Assembly (NCBI GenBank): GCA_026387665.1
Contig: JAPLLG010000007.1
Location: 248,001-312,000, forward strand
Length of the DNA: 64,000 bases
Reading direction: 5' to 3'
Origin: Nitrospirota bacterium
GTDB taxonomy: Bacteria > Nitrospirota > Nitrospiria > Nitrospirales > Nitrospiraceae
Shown here: positions 7,392 through 23,964 of the stretch, one piece after another
Numbering within the stretch: position 1 is the first letter of the stretch
Layout of the letters: each line of letters opens with the position of its first letter
Notes under the pieces: generated by a model
Told to the model about the DNA's origin: nothing
Database searches by the model: none
Seen by the model: only the letters and a program-made list of their open reading frames with translations
Translations under genes and position numbers: made by a program

Positions 7392-8408
7392 ATGATGACG
7401 TCTAGGGCACCTGACTGGCGCGAGTTCACACCGGCAACCCTGCTCCGCAACCAGCACCTCATGACGATCGTTCCAGGCTATTGGCCGCGCCGGGCCCTGC
7501 TATCCGGCATACCGGCCGAATCACGACTCTTCACCACCGATCCCAAGACCCAGTTGCTCGGCTTCTGCCATTGGCAGCCAAACCGGACAGGCTGCCAGAC
7601 CCTGTTGCTCGTGCACGGGCTTGAAGGCTCCAGCGAGTCCCACTACATGCAGGGGATTGCCACGAAAGCCTATCGCGCAGGGATGAACGTCATCCGCCTG
7701 AACCAGCGGACCTGTGGCGGAACCGAACGGCTGACGCCGACCCTCTATAACAGCGGCCTGAGTCAGGACTATCGAGCCATCGTCCAGGAATTGGCGAGCC
7801 TGGATAAACTCACCCGTATCTGGCTGGTCGGCTATTCAATGGGGGGGAATCTCGTCCTGAAAGCAGCAGGCGAACTCGGCTCGTCAGAGGCGGCTCTGGC
7901 CGGGGTGATCGCAGTCTGTCCGAATATCGATCCCACCCAATGCGCCAAAGCCTTGGAAGAGCCTCGCAACTGGCTCTACCACTATCACTTTTTGACCAAG
8001 CTCAAATCGCGCATGAAGCGCAAGGCAGCGCTCTTTCCAGAGAGATGGGACCTCACAGGGCTGGACCGCATCCACATCATCAGCGAGTTCGACGACCGAT
8101 ACACGGCCCCGGACGGCGGCTACGCCAGCGGGCCAGACTACTACGATCGCGCAGGGTCGCGGCACGTACTGGAAAAGATTGCCGTGCCGACCACCGTCGT
8201 CACAGCGCAGGACGATCCCTTTATTCCCTATTCGATGTTTGCCCTTGCGGCCATCAAGCGGAACCCCCTCATCAGGCTGATGGCCCCCCACCATGGAGGC
8301 CACTGCGGGTTCCTTCAGGGGGCACGGAACAATGAAGACAGGTTTTGGGTGGAAAACCGAATCGTCGAATCGATCAGAACAGCAGGAGAGAGCGATCAGG
8401 CAGTCTGA
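7392..8408 (+). CDS. YheT-type alpha/beta hydrolase
   Basis: 338-residue serine hydrolase of the YheT/UPF0017 group, cytosolic. Visible features are the oxyanion region LLVHGLEGSSES (about residues 71-84), NQRTCGGTE typical of YheT, nucleophile elbow GYSMGGN with Ser149, the acid in AQDDPFIP, and the catalytic His in HHGGHCGF near the end. Members are esterases of unclear natural substrate. The start may be either of two adjacent ATG codons (7392, 7395). The gene ends by overlapping the 3' end of the convergent pafA by 13 bases, with no terminator hairpin between them. Confidence 0.88.
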   Translation: MMTSRAPDWREFTPATLLRNQHLMTIVPGYWPRRALLSGIPAESRLFTTDPKTQLLGFCHWQPNRTGCQTLLLVHGLEGSSESHYMQGIATKAYRAGMNVIRLNQRTCGGTERLTPTLYNSGLSQDYRAIVQELASLDKLTRIWLVGYSMGGNLVLKAAGELGSSEAALAGVIAVCPNIDPTQCAKALEEPRNWLYHYHFLTKLKSRMKRKAALFPERWDLTGLDRIHIISEFDDRYTAPDGGYASGPDYYDRAGSRHVLEKIAVPTTVVTAQDDPFIPYSMFALAAIKRNPLIRLMAPHHGGHCGFLQGARNNEDRFWVENRIVESIRTAGESDQAV

Positions 8409-9880
8409 AGATGGGTCCGTACTTCTTTCGCGTAGGTCTTAAACGGATCCGGCATGGGGAAGGGTTCCTGCCCGCGCAATTGGAAGATCGACCAGTTGAT
8501 CACATAGGAGGGAGAAAACCGCGCGTCCAGCGAAGACCCAGCCGCCTCAACCGGAAGTCCCGAAGCCAATAAATGCCGTACGAGTTCACCGCGCCCAAAG
8601 GCCCTGGTATTGCGGGGTGGATGGTCCATGGCTAAGGTAATCGCCTTGTCGGTCGTGAGCCGAGGAACCCGCCCCTCTTCCATCAGACCGTAATAGAGCC
8701 CCTTGCCTTGATGGAGATTGTGATACTCCAGGTCGAGGCTCTTCAGCGCCGGATCTGCCCAGGTTAGTTGTTCCGCCTCGCGAAAGGTTTCCAGCAGCCA
8801 GAGTTTCGAGGCCCAATCCACCCGGCCCACCAGATTCGTATAGTCCCCGCGAAGGTCACGCAACACCGCTTCCCATTGATCGAGGACCCAATCGGTTTCG
8901 TCGTCCTGCCCCCGATAATGTTCCTGCGCCGCTGCGAGAAAGGCTTCCTGAATATCGATCGCCGAGATCGACTTCCCCGATTGCAGCCTGACGATCCATT
9001 GCCGCTCCTGATCCTGCGACAGTTCCTGCATCGTTTCGACCGGCTCATGGAGCTCCAGGCCGCGCGGCGCATGGCCCTCTTCGATCAATTGCAGGACCAG
9101 GCCCGTCGTGCCCAACTTCAAGGCCGTCGCCACCTCGGCCATATTCGAATCGCCGAGTAACAGATGAATGCGGCGGTATTGATTCGGGTCTGCCAGCGGC
9201 TCATCTCTGGTATTCACGATGGCGCGATTCTGCTGCACCCATTCGAAGAAGTCGTTCACGATGTAGTCGGCCCGCTGAGAAATCTGGAACGGCATGGCAG
9301 GCTGCTGCCCATGGCGCATGTTTGCTCCACGCGGCACGATGAGCCGATCCATCTGGATCCAGGCATCCTGGGGACCGGCCATACCGACACGTCCTGCCCC
9401 GGTAAAGATCTGTCTGGTGACCAGGAACGTCACGAAAGGCCCGAGGCCGCGCCTGGTAAAGGGGAAACCGCGCGTCACGAGATAGTTCTCGTGCGACCCG
9501 AAGGTCGCATCGGTTTCATGGTCCACATTGTTCTTGATCAAGGACACCTGGTCGGCCAAACCGAGCTCGTGAACGGCGTCCTGTAGCAACTGATCGCCGG
9601 CCCGGTCGGCAGCCACCACATCGCTCAGCGATTCACATTCCGGCGAAGCCCATTCCAGATGGCCCATGTCGAGATACATACGCCCGGCGTTGGTGAGAAA
9701 TCCTCCGTTGCCGGGCGGTTCATCATGGCCCCGATGGTGCAGATCCAGGACGCCACGCCGTTGCACGTGAAAGAGATGGTCGCGAATCTTGTGGGCAAAC
9801 CAGGTGGGAGAATGGTCCGGCGGGTCTTCATTCACCAAGAGTCCGTATTCGGTTTCCAATCCGAAAATACGGTTCAACAT
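8396..9880 (-). CDS. pafA: PafA-type ligase for UBact/Pup
   Basis: 494-residue member of the Dop/PafA family (glutamine-synthetase-like fold). It is predicted to use ATP to join the C-terminal glutamate of the small modifier to lysines of target proteins. The N-terminus is the hallmark FGLETEYG, with GSHENYL, FTGAGRV and HLLLGDSNMAEVATALKLG downstream. ATG at 9880 lies one base after the prcA stop (TAA-A-ATG), so translation is coupled. PafA is preferred over Dop because it is the last gene of the operon, as in actinobacterial mpa-dop-pup-prcB-prcA-pafA; the two enzymes are homologous, so the assignment rests on gene order. Confidence 0.85.
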   Translation of the reverse strand: MLNRIFGLETEYGLLVNEDPPDHSPTWFAHKIRDHLFHVQRRGVLDLHHRGHDEPPGNGGFLTNAGRMYLDMGHLEWASPECESLSDVVAADRAGDQLLQDAVHELGLADQVSLIKNNVDHETDATFGSHENYLVTRGFPFTRRGLGPFVTFLVTRQIFTGAGRVGMAGPQDAWIQMDRLIVPRGANMRHGQQPAMPFQISQRADYIVNDFFEWVQQNRAIVNTRDEPLADPNQYRRIHLLLGDSNMAEVATALKLGTTGLVLQLIEEGHAPRGLELHEPVETMQELSQDQERQWIVRLQSGKSISAIDIQEAFLAAAQEHYRGQDDETDWVLDQWEAVLRDLRGDYTNLVGRVDWASKLWLLETFREAEQLTWADPALKSLDLEYHNLHQGKGLYYGLMEEGRVPRLTTDKAITLAMDHPPRNTRAFGRGELVRHLLASGLPVEAAGSSLDARFSPSYVINWSIFQLRGQEPFPMPDPFKTYAKEVRTHLQTA

Positions 9881-9881
9881 T

Positions 9882-10712
9882 TTAGTTCGCCACGACTGAT
9901 TGAAGCGCCTTCGGCAGGAGCCGTGACAGATCGGCTGGCTTGAGCGAGCGGTACTTGGAGGTGCCGGGAGCCTGCCGCTCAAGGACCGCACATTCAAGCG
10001 TCCGGCCTCCCGCAATGCTCCGCACATGTTCCATCAGCACGTCGGCACTCGGAATCGCAGCGGCCGCTGAAGCGGTTCCGCTTGCCTGTGGCTCGGTTGC
10101 AGCCTGCTGCTCCGCCTCTTCCTGTTGATGCGCGAGGGAACCAATCGCCCAGGCACGCAAGGTCAGATCCAACGCCTGCTCCAATGACAGAGTGGCAGGC
10201 ATCTGCGCCTTGAGATAGGCCGTCATTTTCGTCTGGGCAGCGGGAGTAGCAGCCAAAACCGCGCACCCGGTCATTTCCTCGAACGTGCCATCGTAGTTGA
10301 TCGTCAGAAGCGCATCCTTCTCCGGCTTCTGCCCCAACTCCGCCACCAGAATACGTACGATGAACGGCGCCTTATAGACTTCCTCAAAGGCCTGTTTGAT
10401 GACGGGGGCAATGCCGTATTTCACCAACCGCGAGCCAGTGACATCAGAGGGCGAACGGTTGAACCCTTCGACATGCGCCATTTCGAGCAGGCTGAAGCGC
10501 AGTTTTTCCAAATCGGTGGGGTGCCCCATTCCGCCCAATGCCAGCCGATCATAGATCTCGTAGAGCTTCGGAGTCCCTTTGCTCACCGTGGCCAGAAGGA
10601 TGCCGCCCTCATAAGTCAGAGCCACAACCGGGCTCCCCTGCTTGAACTGCTCATCCAGATACTGGCGGCGATTGCCGACTGCTTCTACCCAGCGATAGGG
10701 TTCTTCATACAT
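9882..10712 (-). CDS. prcA: 20S proteasome alpha subunit
   Basis: 276-residue alpha-ring subunit of the bacterial 20S proteasome, gating entry to the protease chamber. It has YEEPYRWVEAVGNRRQYLDEQF at the N-terminus, SPVVALTYEGGILLATVS, and a long Ala/Gln-rich stretch (about residues 195-225). It has no catalytic Thr. The start is taken at ATG 10712, with AGGTGG upstream and eight bases of overlap with prcB; an upstream ATG at 10733 is less likely. The C-terminal region after residue 225 is longer than the core fold needs and may be a family-specific tail. Confidence 0.9.
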   Translation of the reverse strand: MYEEPYRWVEAVGNRRQYLDEQFKQGSPVVALTYEGGILLATVSKGTPKLYEIYDRLALGGMGHPTDLEKLRFSLLEMAHVEGFNRSPSDVTGSRLVKYGIAPVIKQAFEEVYKAPFIVRILVAELGQKPEKDALLTINYDGTFEEMTGCAVLAATPAAQTKMTAYLKAQMPATLSLEQALDLTLRAWAIGSLAHQQEEAEQQAATEPQASGTASAAAAIPSADVLMEHVRSIAGGRTLECAVLERQAPGTSKYRSLKPADLSRLLPKALQSVVAN

Positions 10713-11478
10713 AACGCACCACCTGTGATTCATAGAGGGGTTTCAAAGTCGCATCCGGCACCGTCTGCACACCGGCTCCTGTAATCAGCTTGATCACGGG
10801 ATAGAGGCTCGCCTCCCGGTTCACGCCGCCGGTCGCCGAGTCGAATTCCGCCGCGCTGGTGAGCAATCGCAAGGCCTGCACCATCGCCTGCTCTTCCGGC
10901 AGCTGATTGAGGGGCTGATCGCCCCAGGTATTCAAATAATGCAGGATGCCCCTGATCGTGGGAGAACCGGACCCGGACACGGCATATTCCACCCCTTCGA
11001 ACTCCGCCCCGAGGATGTCGTAGAAATAGATCTTAGCCGAACCCTGCTCCAGATCGTAGCCGGCAAACACCGGGACGACCGCGCCGGTCCCGGCCAAGGC
11101 AGCCGGCACATTGTCCTTCAAGAGCTTGGAGATAGCGCGCAGCTTGCCGTCGAAACTCAATTCCTGGAGCTGCGTTCTCCGGTAATATTTGAAGGAATGT
11201 TCCAGGACCCGCACCATTTCATAGGCTGTGGCAGGAACTCCGGCAATGGCCATCACACTGTGCCGATCGATCTCCAGCACCTTGTCCGTGCGATCGTACA
11301 TCACCATATTGCCGGCGGTCGCGCGACGGTCGCCTGCCACCAGCACACCATCGCGATACTTGAAAGCCAGAATCGTCGTGGCATTCGTCAATGCATGGCC
11401 GGCCCCCATCGCCGCCGGCACACTGAGCGTATAGCCCTGCTCTTTCAACAGCTGAAGAAAATCCCCTTGCATCCCCAT
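10705..11478 (-). CDS. prcB: 20S proteasome beta subunit
   Basis: 257-residue catalytic subunit. The active-site Thr is residue 34 (ALTNA|TTILAFKY), exposed by autocleavage of a 33-residue propeptide. Counting from it, Asp17 (AGDRRAT) and Lys33 are conserved, so it should be active. The residue before Thr is Ala where the M. tuberculosis subunit has Gly. The later SGSGSP and DSATGG motifs are present. The start is ATG 11478 (MGMQGDFLQLL), just after a GGGGG-containing ribosome site; the frame extends upstream into repeat R1, which should not be coding. Confidence 0.93.
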   Translation of the reverse strand: MGMQGDFLQLLKEQGYTLSVPAAMGAGHALTNATTILAFKYRDGVLVAGDRRATAGNMVMYDRTDKVLEIDRHSVMAIAGVPATAYEMVRVLEHSFKYYRRTQLQELSFDGKLRAISKLLKDNVPAALAGTGAVVPVFAGYDLEQGSAKIYFYDILGAEFEGVEYAVSGSGSPTIRGILHYLNTWGDQPLNQLPEEQAMVQALRLLTSAAEFDSATGGVNREASLYPVIKLITGAGVQTVPDATLKPLYESQVVRYV

Positions 11479-11521
11479 TTTTCCCCCTTCTCCCCTATTG
11501 AGCGACGGCCTTACCTTCCAT

Positions 11522-11617
11522 GAGGGGTGGGCGGGCGGTCCTCCACTGCGCGCGTCCAACGAGGGCCTTCCCAGGCCGCGCGTTGCGCGAGCACAGAGGA
11601 CAGCCCTCCTACCCCTC
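11522..11617. repeat. R1 structured repeat, copy a
   Basis: 96-bp palindromic element between ubact and prcB. The outer arms (GAGGGGTGGGCGGGCGGTCC and its near-complement at 11596-11617) enclose a conserved core: ACTGCGCGCGTC, an inner stem CAACG/CGTTG, a further GGCC/GGCC hairpin, then GCGAGCACAG. Four other copies lie at 13383, 23728, 26240 and 29272. The element is not coding. Confidence 0.85.
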
Positions 11618-11624
11618 TCAGATC

Positions 11625-11819
11625 TTATTCTCCCGTCCGTTGCCGATACCGCTCCGCCTGCTTCGGATCCACCTTCCGCATACGCTTGAGCAAGTTATCT
11701 TTGTCCGGAGACCCGGTCTCAGGCCTCTTCGGCCCCCCGCCCTCCTCGGACGGACTCGGAGCCTTCGGCATCGGATTGCCAGGCCCTTCCCGGCGTTCCG
11801 GCATTGAGCTGTAGTTCAT
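11625..11819 (-). CDS. ubact: UBact, Pup-like protein modifier
   Basis: 64-residue, disordered, Pro/Gly/charge-rich small protein, the Gram-negative counterpart of mycobacterial Pup. It is attached through its C-terminal residue to lysines of proteins, marking them for the proteasome. The C-terminus KVDPKQAERYRQRTGE ends in Gly-Glu, the form that needs no prior deamidation (mycobacterial Pup ends Gly-Gln). Its ATG overlaps the dop stop codon (ATGA), with AAAGGAG seven bases upstream, which fixes the start; a second Met at residue 6 is possible. The residues after about 40 (DNLLKRMRKV) should form the helix that docks on the ATPase. Confidence 0.9.
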   Translation of the reverse strand: MNYSSMPERREGPGNPMPKAPSPSEEGGGPKRPETGSPDKDNLLKRMRKVDPKQAERYRQRTGE

Positions 11820-13342
11820 GATCGGGACTCCTTTTCTCTATTCCATGCAGTCAGCGCATCCATCGGGGAGGCCGCTCGTTCAAAAATCTGCGCACAGGCT
11901 TGTACATCCTCCGGTTTAAAGAGGTCGCCCATCTCCAACGTTCTCGATAGCAGCCCCCCGCTGAACTGAATCCGCTCCCACTGCATCGATTTGATCTGAT
12001 CAGGGAACCGCCTGATACAGAGGCCGCGAATACCCGCCCTGGTATCGGCCGGACCAGCCACCAAGGCCGATTCAATGTCCTGCTCCAAGGTCATCCGCCA
12101 GGCCTTCCCCTCTGCCTCCAGCCCCAGAAAGAGCCCGCGCTCCGGATTCACATTATGGTACTCCAAATCCAAACTGGCCAGCCAGGGGTCCTCCCAGCCG
12201 AGCTTCTCTTCCTGCATAAACGTTTCCAACAGCCAGAGCTTGGTGACCCAATCGAGCTTCCCGACCAGCTGCTGTCGATCACCGGCCAGCAATCGCAACG
12301 TGGCAGCCCATTCGCGCAGGATCCAATCGGTCTCTGCATCAGCCCCGGCCAAATGTTTCTGAGCCGCGAGATAATACTGTTCTTGAATGTCGAGGCCCGT
12401 GATGGTACTGCCGTTTCTCTGACGAACCGTGGCCTTCAAGTTCTGATCGCGAGAAAGCTGCTTCACTGCGGTAACAGAATGTTCCAATTCAAGCACCGGG
12501 GCAGCCCCTCGCGCGATCAACTCCAGGGCCAACTGCGTCGTCCCAACTTTCAGGGCCGTGGCGTATTCGCACATATTGGCATCGCCGATGATGAGATGGA
12601 GCCGCCGATATTTTTCCCGCACCGCGTGCGGCTCGTCCCTCGTATTCAGAATTGGCCGGTTATGCATCGTATCGACGCTCAGATCCGTCTCCATGAAATC
12701 GGCCCGTTGGGAGAGCTGATAGGAGCCTGGCACGAATCCGCTCTCCTGCCCCTCCACCCCGACTTTGCCGGCTCCGGCAATGATTTGCCTGCTGACCAGG
12801 AACGGCAGCAGCCCAGCGGTCAGCGCAGGGAAGGGAATCGAACGTGAGAGGAGATAGTTATCGTGGCAACCGTAACTATGGCCGTGGAAGTCCGTATTGT
12901 TCTTGTAGAGCTGCACCGGAGATCCGCCGAGCACCTGGTTGCGACGCTCCGCCGCCCGCTGAGCGATCCGCTCCCCGGCCCGGTCATGGGCGAGAAGATC
13001 TTTCAACGTCCGACATTCCGGCGTGGAATATTCAGGGTGCGTATGGTCGTTGTAGAAGCGGGCTCCGTTCGGAAGGACCAGGTCGCTCTTCATCTCATGA
13101 AACGAAAAAGGCCGATGGGCATCGACCTTGGCGAACTCGTCTTCTTCTTTGTCCTGTTGCAGACCTAAGACCCGGAACCCCCGCGCATCCTCATGAGGGT
13201 CTTCCCCCCCATAGTCCCAGCGCCTCTCGAACGAAGCAGTCAGATGGGCCCGCACCAGCTCCATCGACTCCACGACCGGATCGACCGCCTCCTGGTCTTC
13301 CCTCGTGATCCCATACTCTGTTTCGATCCCGAACAGCCGCAT
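11816..13342 (-). CDS. dop: Dop-type depupylase/deamidase homologue
   Basis: 508-residue Dop/PafA-family enzyme. N-terminal FGIETEYG, GCHDNYLLSR, IIAGAGKVG and HLIIGDANMCEYATALKVG mark the family. Between about residues 40 and 90 it has a longer charged insertion (GEDPHEDARGF...EFAKVDAHRPF) than PafA, consistent with the Dop loop. In actinobacteria Dop converts Pup-GQ to Pup-GE and also removes Pup from substrates. Here the modifier already ends in GE, so only the removal activity would be needed. Position directly before ubact supports the call. Confidence 0.85.
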   Translation of the reverse strand: MRLFGIETEYGITREDQEAVDPVVESMELVRAHLTASFERRWDYGGEDPHEDARGFRVLGLQQDKEEDEFAKVDAHRPFSFHEMKSDLVLPNGARFYNDHTHPEYSTPECRTLKDLLAHDRAGERIAQRAAERRNQVLGGSPVQLYKNNTDFHGHSYGCHDNYLLSRSIPFPALTAGLLPFLVSRQIIAGAGKVGVEGQESGFVPGSYQLSQRADFMETDLSVDTMHNRPILNTRDEPHAVREKYRRLHLIIGDANMCEYATALKVGTTQLALELIARGAAPVLELEHSVTAVKQLSRDQNLKATVRQRNGSTITGLDIQEQYYLAAQKHLAGADAETDWILREWAATLRLLAGDRQQLVGKLDWVTKLWLLETFMQEEKLGWEDPWLASLDLEYHNVNPERGLFLGLEAEGKAWRMTLEQDIESALVAGPADTRAGIRGLCIRRFPDQIKSMQWERIQFSGGLLSRTLEMGDLFKPEDVQACAQIFERAASPMDALTAWNREKESRS

Positions 13343-13382
13343 CTTCGTTCCCGTACTCCTCGCCCCCCAGGGACAGAATCAC

Positions 13383-13479
13383 GACAAGGTGGCTGGGGTG
13401 CTCTCAACTGCGCCCATCGAGCGAGCACATTCTGATCGTGCGCGCTCTGGGAGCAAAGAGAGCCCCCAGCCACCTGTCC
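13383..13479. repeat. R1 structured repeat, copy b
   Basis: 97-bp copy between mpa/arc and dop. The arms (GACAAGGTGGCTGGGG... with ...CCCCCAGCCACCTGTCC) differ in sequence from the other copies but are complementary to each other. The core has ACTGCGCCCATC, inner stem GAGCG/CGCTC, then GCAC/GTGC, and GGGAGCAAAG. Its right end reaches three bases from the mpa stop. Confidence 0.85.
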
Positions 13480-13481
13480 CT

Positions 13482-15239
13482 TTAGATAATCTGTCCTATC
13501 AATTTTTCTTCTGTCTGCCGCCCTCTCCGGAACGAGGAGACTCCGACGACCTGCTCCGGATGGTGATCGAGGAGCTTAAGCCATTCTTCCGCTGCATCGT
13601 CGGGCGGCAACATCTCGCCCTCCCGGAACTCTGCATGTACGGAGCTGACCAGATCGTCCAGGGTCATGCCGCCTGGCTCGCCCGCGCCTGACGCAATCAT
13701 CCGGTCAATCGCCCGTTCCTTCGCCCGTTGCACAATAGAAGACAAGATCGCGCCGCTGATCAGATCACCCCGATAGAGCACCTTATTCTGTCCGCTACGG
13801 AGCCTGATCGAGAGGAGCCGGTTTTCATCGACGCGCGAGAAGATCGCAGAAAGCGCATGGTCGATGAGGTCGGCGCAGGACTTCTTCCGGTCCCCGCCGT
13901 GCTGGTCGATCCATTGCCGGTCCAGAGGCAGGTCCTCCGTCAGATACACATTCAAAATCGCGGCAGCCGAGTCACGATTGGGACGGCTCACTTTGATCTT
14001 GCGATCGATGCGGCCTGGCCTGAGCACAGCCGGGTCGATTAAATCAGGCCTGTTCGAAGCCAGAATGATCACCACATCCTGCAGCGATTCGATTCCGTCC
14101 ATCTCGGAACAGAACATCGGCACGAGGGTGCTGGAAATATTGAAGGACCGAGAGGCCCGTCTCGTGCCGAGCACCGACTCCGCTTCGTCGATGAAAATAA
14201 ATGGCAGAGCCCCTTCCTTCCGACGAGCGCGGGCCTGGGCGAAGAGATCACGGACCATCCGCTCCGATTCTCCCAGCCACATATTCAAAATTTCCGGCCC
14301 CTTGATATGGAGGAAGGCTCCGCGAGTCACCGGCGGTTTATCGCCCTTCGCGCCGACCGTAGCCTTGCTCGCCTCCCCCACCAGCTTGGCGAGGCTGGCG
14401 GCAGCCGCCTGTCCGATCAAAGTCTTGCCGCAGCCGGGAGGACCATACAATAAAAAACCCTTCGGCTGAGTAAACTTAAAGCGCTGAAACGTGTCCGCAT
14501 GGAGCAGGGGATACTCGATCGCCTTCTTAATGGCGGCGATCGCCTCCGTTTGCCCGCCGATCTGCTCCCACGTGACGGTAGGAACCTCGTCCAGGAGGTG
14601 GGACTTGGACTTTTTATCTTCAAGTTTTTCAATCGCCACATGGAGGCTTGGCTCGATCCGCACCTCATCGCCCGCTTTCAGGTCCACCCCGAGCAGATCG
14701 CTCGACCGTTGGAGGATCAAGACCTGCCGACCCATCTCCTGCTCGAACCGAAGTCGCCCATCCGGCAAGGCTTCCGCGACTTTCAACACGGGGCCATTCC
14801 GGTCATAGCCCAGAATCTTAATGACGGCGAAGGCTTCGTTGACGAGAATCTGCGCGCCGATCTTCAGCTCCGTAGCCTGCACCCTGGGATCGACGCTGGC
14901 ATAATACTCAGCGCCCCCCACCAGGATCCTGGCAAGGCCATCGCCCGGCACCTCAAGCAAGGTGCCGATCCGGTTGGCCGGCGCGATAAGCTTCGCGATG
15001 ACGTCAGCGGCTTTTTTGAATTCGACTTCTCGCTGCAGTTGCGCCGCTTGGCCAAGAGTCACGGCATGGCGCAGCTTGTAGAGGATCTTCTGCCGGGGGT
15101 CACTGTCGGGAAATGAGGCGAGACATTCTTCTATCAGCTCAAGCGGGTCGGACCCCATGCGCATCGACGGATTCGCAACGTCCTCCGGCTTCCTGTTGAG
15201 TTCTGGGTCCTGTGGTTCAGTGGGTCGGCGATCACTCAT
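13482..15239 (-). CDS. mpa: Proteasome-activating AAA+ ATPase (Mpa/ARC)
   Basis: 585-residue hexameric unfoldase that feeds tagged proteins into the 20S core. It has an N-terminal coiled-coil segment (about residues 45-85), an OB-fold interdomain, then the AAA+ module: Walker A GPPGCGKT, Walker B FIFIDEAES, sensor ILASNRPD and arginine finger RPGRIDRK. ATG 15239 has GGAGG eight bases upstream; the preceding in-frame TTG is unlikely. The C-terminus is KLIGQII; mycobacterial Mpa ends GQYL, whose penultimate Tyr docks on the core, and here that position is Ile. First gene of the proteasome operon. Confidence 0.93.
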   Translation of the reverse strand: MSDRRPTEPQDPELNRKPEDVANPSMRMGSDPLELIEECLASFPDSDPRQKILYKLRHAVTLGQAAQLQREVEFKKAADVIAKLIAPANRIGTLLEVPGDGLARILVGGAEYYASVDPRVQATELKIGAQILVNEAFAVIKILGYDRNGPVLKVAEALPDGRLRFEQEMGRQVLILQRSSDLLGVDLKAGDEVRIEPSLHVAIEKLEDKKSKSHLLDEVPTVTWEQIGGQTEAIAAIKKAIEYPLLHADTFQRFKFTQPKGFLLYGPPGCGKTLIGQAAAASLAKLVGEASKATVGAKGDKPPVTRGAFLHIKGPEILNMWLGESERMVRDLFAQARARRKEGALPFIFIDEAESVLGTRRASRSFNISSTLVPMFCSEMDGIESLQDVVIILASNRPDLIDPAVLRPGRIDRKIKVSRPNRDSAAAILNVYLTEDLPLDRQWIDQHGGDRKKSCADLIDHALSAIFSRVDENRLLSIRLRSGQNKVLYRGDLISGAILSSIVQRAKERAIDRMIASGAGEPGGMTLDDLVSSVHAEFREGEMLPPDDAAEEWLKLLDHHPEQVVGVSSFRRGRQTEEKLIGQII

Positions 15240-15315
15240 CAATGGTCCTCCATGCGGAACAGATAAGTAATCCTAGCATAGCGACATCATGGATTGCCGC
15301 TACTCACGCCACCGC

Positions 15316-16449
15316 TTAATTGACGGCTTGCAGGGTCACGGAGACCCGTTCCCGGCTGGTTCCCCGTAGGATTTCGACCGTGACCCGGTCGTTGACCTTG
15401 TGCCGTTCCATCACATCCATCAGTTCGTCCAGCGTCCCAACCTGCTTGCCGTCGACCGAAAGGATGATGTCGCCCAATTCCACCCGACCGGTGGCGGTTT
15501 CACGCGCGCCCTTCAACCCTGCCTGCTCCGCCCCGCTGCCAGGCGACACCTTGCCGATAATCAGCCCCTTGATCCCCCACCGCTTGGCCATCGCATCTGG
15601 CACGAGCGAGACCCCGAGCCCAGGACGGATAAGCTTGCCGTACCTGATCAGCTCCGGCACGATGCGGTTGACCGTATCCACCGGCACAGCAAAACCAATT
15701 CCCGCGAAGGCCCCGCTGGGGCTCATGATCTGCGTGTTCACTCCGATCAAGCGTCCGGCGCTATCCAGCAGCGGCCCGCCTGAGTTTCCCGGATTGATGG
15801 CGGCATCGGTCTGGATGACCCCTTCAATCGTCCGGTTCGTCAAGGACTTGATCGTCCGCCCCAAGGCGCTCACCACGCCGGTCGTCAGCGTATGGTCGAG
15901 GCCGAAGGGATTCCCGATCGCCAAGACCTTCTGCCCGACTCGCAGATCCCGCGAGGTCCCGACTGCGAGGGGCGAGAGCGCTTCTTCCGACGCGCGGACC
16001 TGCAGCACCGCCACATCGTGATCGGGATCGGCGCCGATGAGCGTGGCCTTATGCTCCGTCCGATCCGCCAGCGTGACGGTGATCGAATTCGCCCCGTAGA
16101 CGACATGAAAATTGGTGACGATATGCCCCTGCTTGTTCCAGACGAATCCCGATCCGGACCCCTGCGGGACTTCAAAGAGATTGAACGACCAGGGATCCCG
16201 TTGAATTGCGGTGTTTGAGATAAAGACGACGGATTTCGTGGCCCGCTCGAAGACAGCCATCGTGGCCCGCTCGTCCTCACCCAACTCGGCTGGCGGGGGC
16301 GCTACGACGCGCGGCTTCCCTTCAGGACCATCATAGGTTCCACCTAGCGGCTTCCCCCATTCTCCTGTCGACAAACCAGGCCAGAGACTGAGACCCAAGA
16401 GTCCCGCCGCCACGAGAGCTCTGCCTGCCACATGCCCCTTCGCCATCAT
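15316..16449 (-). CDS. HtrA/DegP-like periplasmic serine protease
   Basis: 377 residues. An N-terminal signal peptide (ALVAAGLLGLSLWPGLSTG) is followed by an S1C trypsin-like domain with the full catalytic triad: His115 (VTNFHVV), Asp145 (DPDHDVAVLQV) and Ser223 (GNSGGPL). One C-terminal PDZ domain starts near residue 270 and includes GLIIGKVSPGSGAEQAGL. It is a quality-control protease in the periplasm; a single PDZ resembles DegS or many HtrA-like enzymes rather than two-PDZ DegP. The start overlaps the stop of the yjbQ-like gene by four bases (ATGA), so the two are coupled. Confidence 0.92.
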   Translation of the reverse strand: MMAKGHVAGRALVAAGLLGLSLWPGLSTGEWGKPLGGTYDGPEGKPRVVAPPPAELGEDERATMAVFERATKSVVFISNTAIQRDPWSFNLFEVPQGSGSGFVWNKQGHIVTNFHVVYGANSITVTLADRTEHKATLIGADPDHDVAVLQVRASEEALSPLAVGTSRDLRVGQKVLAIGNPFGLDHTLTTGVVSALGRTIKSLTNRTIEGVIQTDAAINPGNSGGPLLDSAGRLIGVNTQIMSPSGAFAGIGFAVPVDTVNRIVPELIRYGKLIRPGLGVSLVPDAMAKRWGIKGLIIGKVSPGSGAEQAGLKGARETATGRVELGDIILSVDGKQVGTLDELMDVMERHKVNDRVTVEILRGTSRERVSVTLQAVN

Positions 16450-23519: not shown

Positions 23520-23964
23520 TGAGACTCCCAACTGTTGAATATGCTAACCAGCATAAAACGCCGAGTCAGGCTACACATTGCGCGAGATTGTCGCGTGACT
23601 TCACCAACTTGTCAACGCACGCCAGCACGGTCAACATACTGCATGAGCTATCCCTTGCTGTGCGCATCCACTGAACACACCGTCCCCGCAGGAGAAATCA
23701 CCTCAGGCTTGTTCATTTTCTCTTCACGGGGGCGGCCTGTTGATCTCCCACTGCGCGCGTCCAACGAGGGCCTTCTGAGGCCGCGCGTTGCGCGAGCACA
23801 GGAGATCAACAGGCTGCCCTCCCAATCTTTCTGAGCGTACGCGTTCCGCGAGCAAGAAGGATGGCCTGGCGGCGCCCCTCTCTCTTGGAGAGGCCGCTCA
23901 CTCCGAACCAGACACTAGATGGTGATAACAGGGGAAAAGGTGACGGGATGGAACTTGCGAGGTG
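23520..23964. other. Intergenic region holding R1 copy c
   Basis: 445 bases between the hypothetical gene and tRNA-Thr. About 96 of them are repeat R1 (listed separately). No convincing open frame, integrase remnant or copy of the tRNA 3' end was seen in the rest. Confidence 0.5.
23728..23823. repeat. R1 structured repeat, copy c
   Basis: 96-bp element. The outer arms GGGGGCGGCCTGTTGATCTC and its near-perfect complement close a core almost identical to copy a (ACTGCGCGCGTC, CAACG/CGTTG, GGCC/GGCC, GCGAGCACAG). The arms are unrelated in sequence to those of copy a, although the core is the same. Confidence 0.88.

Follow-up and report, generated by a model that had tools for sequence, protein, structure and literature searches.

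A Glu-ending UBact tag and a retained Dop-like enzyme in a Nitrospira-type bacterium that also encodes a Pup system

The closest described relative of the locus analyzed here is the UBact conjugation system (Lehmann et al. 2017, BBRC 483:946, cited in PMC12751074). That system shares with our locus a PF20513/NF033388 modifier, linked Dop/PafA homologues, 20S subunits and an ATPase, and we see no difference in kind; what our analysis appears to add is the switching of the modifier's last residue between Glu and Gln and a class-wide coexistence with Pup. The pairing of a Glu-encoded tag with a retained Dop also has a precedent. In C. glutamicum, Pup ends in Glu and Dop is kept, which a 2012 report explains by depupylation (PMC3511204), the differences being that the tag there belongs to the Pup and not the UBact family and that PafA and Dop are canonical. 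The same report notes two whole systems in one genome of Leptospirillum ferrooxidans L1/L2, with the same gene order and with a second tag that, like UBact, lacks GGE. That case concerns one species, whereas here both tags occur in 77 genomes of the phylum.

The window, by which we mean the whole 64,000-nucleotide stretch that was analyzed, carries a single minus-strand cluster in the order ATPase-Dop-UBact-PrcB-PrcA-PafA, comprising two PF03136 proteins, 20S beta and alpha subunits and an AAA ATPase. The ubact gene (11625..11819) encodes a 64-residue modifier that scores 77.2 bits against Pfam PF20513 (cut-off 27.8) and 81.4 bits against NCBIfam NF033388 (cut-off 35). It does not match the Pup model PF05639, for which the only match in this genome lies on another contig, C8. 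An earlier note had described this tag as ready for ligation and not in need of deamidation, and both points stand, as the reading frame ends RQRTGE followed by a stop and Glu is thus encoded. The overlap that the note reported between ubact and its Dop homologue is also present, the TGA of the dop-like gene (11816..13342, minus strand, 508 residues, PF03136 543.7 bits; DopA below) and the ATG of ubact sharing the sequence ATGA, although only 27 of the 59 related operons have this arrangement. Downstream lie genes for a PrcB-like beta subunit (10705..11478, minus strand, with a likely ATG at 11478 inside ORF 10705-11559; PF00227 90.5 bits), a PrcA-like alpha subunit (9882..10733, minus strand; PF00227 36.4 bits and TIGR03691 81.9 bits, the latter under its cut-off) and a PafA-like enzyme, the probable UBact ligase (8396..9880, minus strand, with a likely ATG at 9880 inside ORF 8396-10027). 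Upstream of dop is the gene for an Arc/Mpa-like proteasomal AAA ATPase (13482..15242, minus strand).

All six genes stand together in 57 of the 59 related operons, the two exceptions being one cut by a contig end and one in which no beta subunit was detected. Of 80 named Nitrospira loci, 72 likewise have the whole operon, and the remaining loci end early. Judged from its genes, the cluster is an operon for UBact tagging in a Nitrospira-type bacterium and encodes a complete system. Two intergenic elements were seen. The gap between ATPase and dop (13343..13481) can form a long, very stable hairpin (fold z-score -6.5), and the gap between ubact and prcB holds a palindromic dispersed repeat (11535..11622) that occurs at least 40 times in the genome, including one copy near window position 23755 and one about 110 bases past pup on contig C8 (C8:217559-217622). 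In sister genomes the ubact-prcB gap is occupied by this palindromic repeat or by repeat-like sequence of another kind, or is nearly empty. Directly upstream of the ATPase gene, on the same strand, inspection showed a gene for a trypsin-like PDZ protease of the HtrA/DegP kind (15316-16449).

The proteasome components carry the expected core features. The beta subunit has the N-terminal Thr of a mature chain (A|TTILAF), ORF residue 61 aligning with residue 1 of mature PrcB in structure 1q5q, and each of the 59 UBact-set beta subunits inspected has TT[IV] after A or G. The ATPase matches PF00004, PF17758 and PF16450 and has the tandem OB and AAA domains of Arc/Mpa and Walker A/B motifs; it was compared with structures 5kwa and 7px9, and it scores 426 bits against TIGR03689, below the cut-off. 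Its AlphaFold model had a mean pLDDT of 57.6, too weak for judging an N-terminal coiled coil. The ATPase ends in GQII, without the penultimate Tyr of the GQYL-type docking tail, and its relatives end in NQII, GQII, RAIE and similar sequences, while the Pup-set ATPases keep the Tyr (GHYL or GHYF).

Assigning the eraser and ligase roles required more than model scores. DopA scores 457.3 bits against the Dop model TIGR03688 (cut-off 492.3) and 365 bits against the PafA model TIGR03686, in both cases under the cut-off, and we call it Dop-like and not Dop proper. The PafA-like enzyme scores about equally with TIGR03686 (323 bits, cut-off 551) and the Dop model (320 bits), and indeed all enzymes of the window's UBact operon fall below the NCBIfam equivalog cut-offs. 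The Dop and PafA roles are thus assigned by analogy, and the residues are a better guide than the scores. Identity between DopA and actinobacterial Dop is only about 41-43%, yet DopA has in common with the enzymes of the Dop-Pup structures (4b0r, 7oxv-7oyh; PMC8599861) and of the Dop/PafA reciprocal mutants (PMC7947786) the active-site residues and the Dop-loop. In A. cellulolyticus Dop, catalysis and Mg2+ binding fall to E8, E10, Y92, D94, E99, H155 and H241 (PMC8599861). Alignment to 4b0r/9cku places the DopA catalytic Asp, whose loss the earlier note had named as a point against its reading, at D99, equivalent to D94; it is kept together with all six Mg2+ ligands, namely E7, E9, Y97, E104 and both His. 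All seven residues are invariant in 126 distinct DopA sequences. The Dop-loop (the W-x-Y..E-x-P..D-x-R-G segment) is present in DopA and absent from both PafA groups, including all 59 sequences of the PafA-like enzyme. At the positions taken from the reciprocal mutants as separating Dop from PafA (PMC7947786), DopA is of Dop type at many and has the Dop-type residues S27, V31, H95, S101, P103, F208 and E210, and the PafA-like paralogue has PafA-type F84, L93 (mostly) and A101. The alpha-loop of the PafA-like enzyme is a third conserved type, neither Dop nor PafA. Collectively these residues suggest that DopA is likely the eraser and the PafA-like product of the last gene likely the ligase.

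In an unrooted tree the UBact-set Dop-like and PafA-like enzymes form one group (98/98), opposed to the Dop and PafA of the Pup set, and the Dop-loop is common to the Dops of both sets despite this pairing. An AU test against a single Dop clade was marginal (p 0.045) and not significant once long branches were removed (p 0.09). It is possible from these sequences that the UBact-set ligase had a second origin by a separate duplication.

The earlier note had also counted two family genes and a complete tagging system. The complete system is indeed encoded, but PF03136 genes number four in this genome, the window and contig C8 holding a pair each, and a second system had been missed. The cluster on C8 consists of an Mpa-type ATPase (tail GHYL), Dop, 20S beta and alpha subunits and PafA; its Dop, PafA and ATPase are canonical, at 545, 563 and 740 bits, above the cut-offs. 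The Pup of this genome ends VQKGGE and is encoded 46 kb from the C8 dop-prc operon. A pup gene outside the dop-prc operon was seen in the window's family (in our genome, L007:7255-7452 and L005:6831-13239 on C8) and in its sister family, and in other families of the class pup has stayed between dop and prcB. Among 245 genomes of the phylum, UBact was present in 84, Pup in 113 and both in 77. Exactly four Dop/PafA genes were found in 72 of the 77 two-tag genomes; with Pup alone, 28 of 36 genomes have two, and with UBact alone, 5 of 7. Contamination was rejected as the source of the second system, as both tags occur in 10 single-contig genomes and our assembly is 99.83% complete with 0.23% contamination. 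We did not find this phylum-wide coexistence described in the literature searched, which does not take in the founding UBact paper.

To place the Glu ending of the window's tag among its relatives, we compared UBact C-termini. In 59 further genomes of the phylum the tag ends in Glu in 47 and in Gln in 12, with DopA always alongside; a second UBact-like match in one genome (G139) proved to be fortuitous, lying within a longer reading frame. A tree of DopA, PafA-like enzyme and ATPase was built from 106 non-identical complete operons drawn from the 59 genomes and the 80 named Nitrospira loci, which include N. moscoviensis and Ca. N. defluvii; one UBact copy (L205), frameshifted near its end, was left out. 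Of these 106, 82 end in Glu and 24 in Gln, and no other residue was seen. The last residue is the most variable of the final 24 positions, and the four residues preceding it never change. The tree requires at least 17 Glu/Gln changes, and the estimate under a two-state likelihood model is about 15 changes from Glu to Gln and 18 from Gln to Glu; these counts rest on a FastTree topology, some of whose forks are weak. In the genus to which the window belongs, the tag ends in Glu in four genomes, our own among them, and in Gln in five. The Pup of the second system varies as well, with 60 Glu and 10 Gln among 70. The earlier note had found it surprising that Dop should be retained beside a Gly-Glu tag. 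This impression does not survive the comparison: Glu is the majority state, Dop is present through all of the changes, and a Glu-ending UBact beside a retained Dop is the norm, not an anomaly. As a narrow claim, it is explained and ordinary.

What keeps Dop in place is probably a single hydrolase activity that serves both deamidation and tag removal; we hold this as part of a fuller explanation that covers the operon, ligation and the separate Pup set. UBact made with a C-terminal Glu would be phosphorylated by the PafA-like ligase and joined to lysines, as homology suggests, and tagged proteins would pass to the cognate ATPase and 20S core. DopA, its active site intact, would cut the gamma-amide of the last residue, the leaving group being ammonia for a Gln-ending UBact and the substrate lysine in deconjugation. 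Deamidation would then be used where Gln is encoded and deconjugation always, so that removal and recycling would keep the DopA activity under selection as Glu and Gln replace each other by drift at the last position. The UBact set would work beside the canonical Pup set in the same cell, the two presumably being separate. If Dop served for deamidation alone, decay would be expected in Glu-ending lineages, and none was seen. Relaxation in these lineages was rejected, as the rate of DopA relative to the PafA-like enzyme and to the ATPase is equal in Glu and Gln lineages (p 0.66 and 0.48), a comparison confined to end branches that would miss weak relaxation. In one Gln-ending, UBact-only, single-contig genome (G019) the only two PF03136 genes are DopA and the PafA-like enzyme; DopA, as its sole Dop, must deamidate there if UBact is used. 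In the literature searched we found no evidence, enzymatic or proteomic, of UBact being conjugated or removed.

The earlier note had gone further and made removal the essential job of Dop. The intact Dop beside a ready-to-use tag agrees with it, and the published reasoning for C. glutamicum Pup (PMC3511204) runs the same way; the note's reading splits removal from deamidation, which are probably one activity. In the strong form of that reading, in which DopA of Glu-ending species has become a dedicated deconjugase for which deamidation is irrelevant, we regard it as unlikely. A pure deconjugase in Glu lineages would block changes back to Gln, yet these are frequent: the Glu-to-Gln changes inferred within Glu-ending clades need a deamidase that is already there, which implies that the ability to deamidate survives in Glu lineages, and the seven catalytic and metal residues are identical in Glu and Gln lineages. 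A less probable alternative is that the erasers are shared, DopA serving Pup or the Pup-system Dop serving UBact, with dop kept for the other tag. Both sets do sit in one genome and both tags end in Gly-Glu, but DopA is kept in UBact-only genomes, Pup-only genomes have their own Dop, there are two paralogues per tag, and DopA always lies inside the UBact operon. That DopA is kept by its tight operon linkage only, or as a non-catalytic partner, for instance in UBact binding or ligase regulation, is very improbable given the invariance of its seven catalytic and metal residues across deep divergence. Returning to the single-activity explanation, the repeated Glu/Gln switches offer a natural experiment that bears on whether a single activity underlies both deamidation and deconjugation.

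The earlier note had proposed GE-lysine as the proteomic remnant of conjugation. The remnant left by trypsin would instead be TGE, because the last Arg of UBact is R61. From residue masses, trypsin remnants should add 287.112 Da for UBact (TGE) and 243.086 Da for Pup (GGE), and since these differ, the targets of both ubiquitin-like codes could be mapped in one sample in a single proteomics run.

UBact relatives were also found on viral contigs of IMG/VR. Seven contigs carry four distinct sequences, all ending QRTGE; the viral gene matches PF20513 at 54.9 bits and stands alone on each (L272, 6388-6546; L271, 3809-3967; L273, 628-786; L274, 2232-2390; and L275, L276 and L277). Their neighbors are of T4 type, including deoxynucleotide monophosphate kinase, cytosine methyltransferase, a TET-like dioxygenase, gp32 and alpha-glucosyltransferase. 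Beside the viral ubact genes the seven contigs showed no genes for Dop, PafA or the proteasome, single-protein queries found no Dop/PafA relatives on viral contigs, UBact had no match in named phages, and no description of viral UBact was found in the literature searched. Synonymous change far exceeds non-synonymous change, a pattern indicating that viral UBact is under purifying selection. The Glu ending of all four sequences fits a ready-to-use tag, four being too few for a test. Pup is present in viruses as well: a search found 42 viral contigs with a stand-alone pup (L278-L319), and in the 36 examined no other genes of the system lay nearby within the sequence stretch available. Such viral copies suggest that phage-host conflict has proteasome tagging in bacteria among its targets. 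Tentatively, and with some doubt, we propose that many Nitrospira cells run two separate proteasomal codes, one based on UBact and one on Pup, that a dedicated ligase, eraser, unfoldase and 20S core serves each code, and that phages may exploit these codes through ligation-ready tags (UBact-GE on T4-like contigs and Pup on many others) that would steer the host ligase and proteasome during infection. Pup in viruses is not without precedent, because a gene of Streptomyces phage Dagobah (L320:2878-3114) is annotated 'ubiquitin-like protein Pup'. The 36 viral Pup sequences examined end in GGE or GGQ, one divergent copy excepted, and two contigs, L313 and L316, carry the same Pup apart from a Glu/Gln difference.
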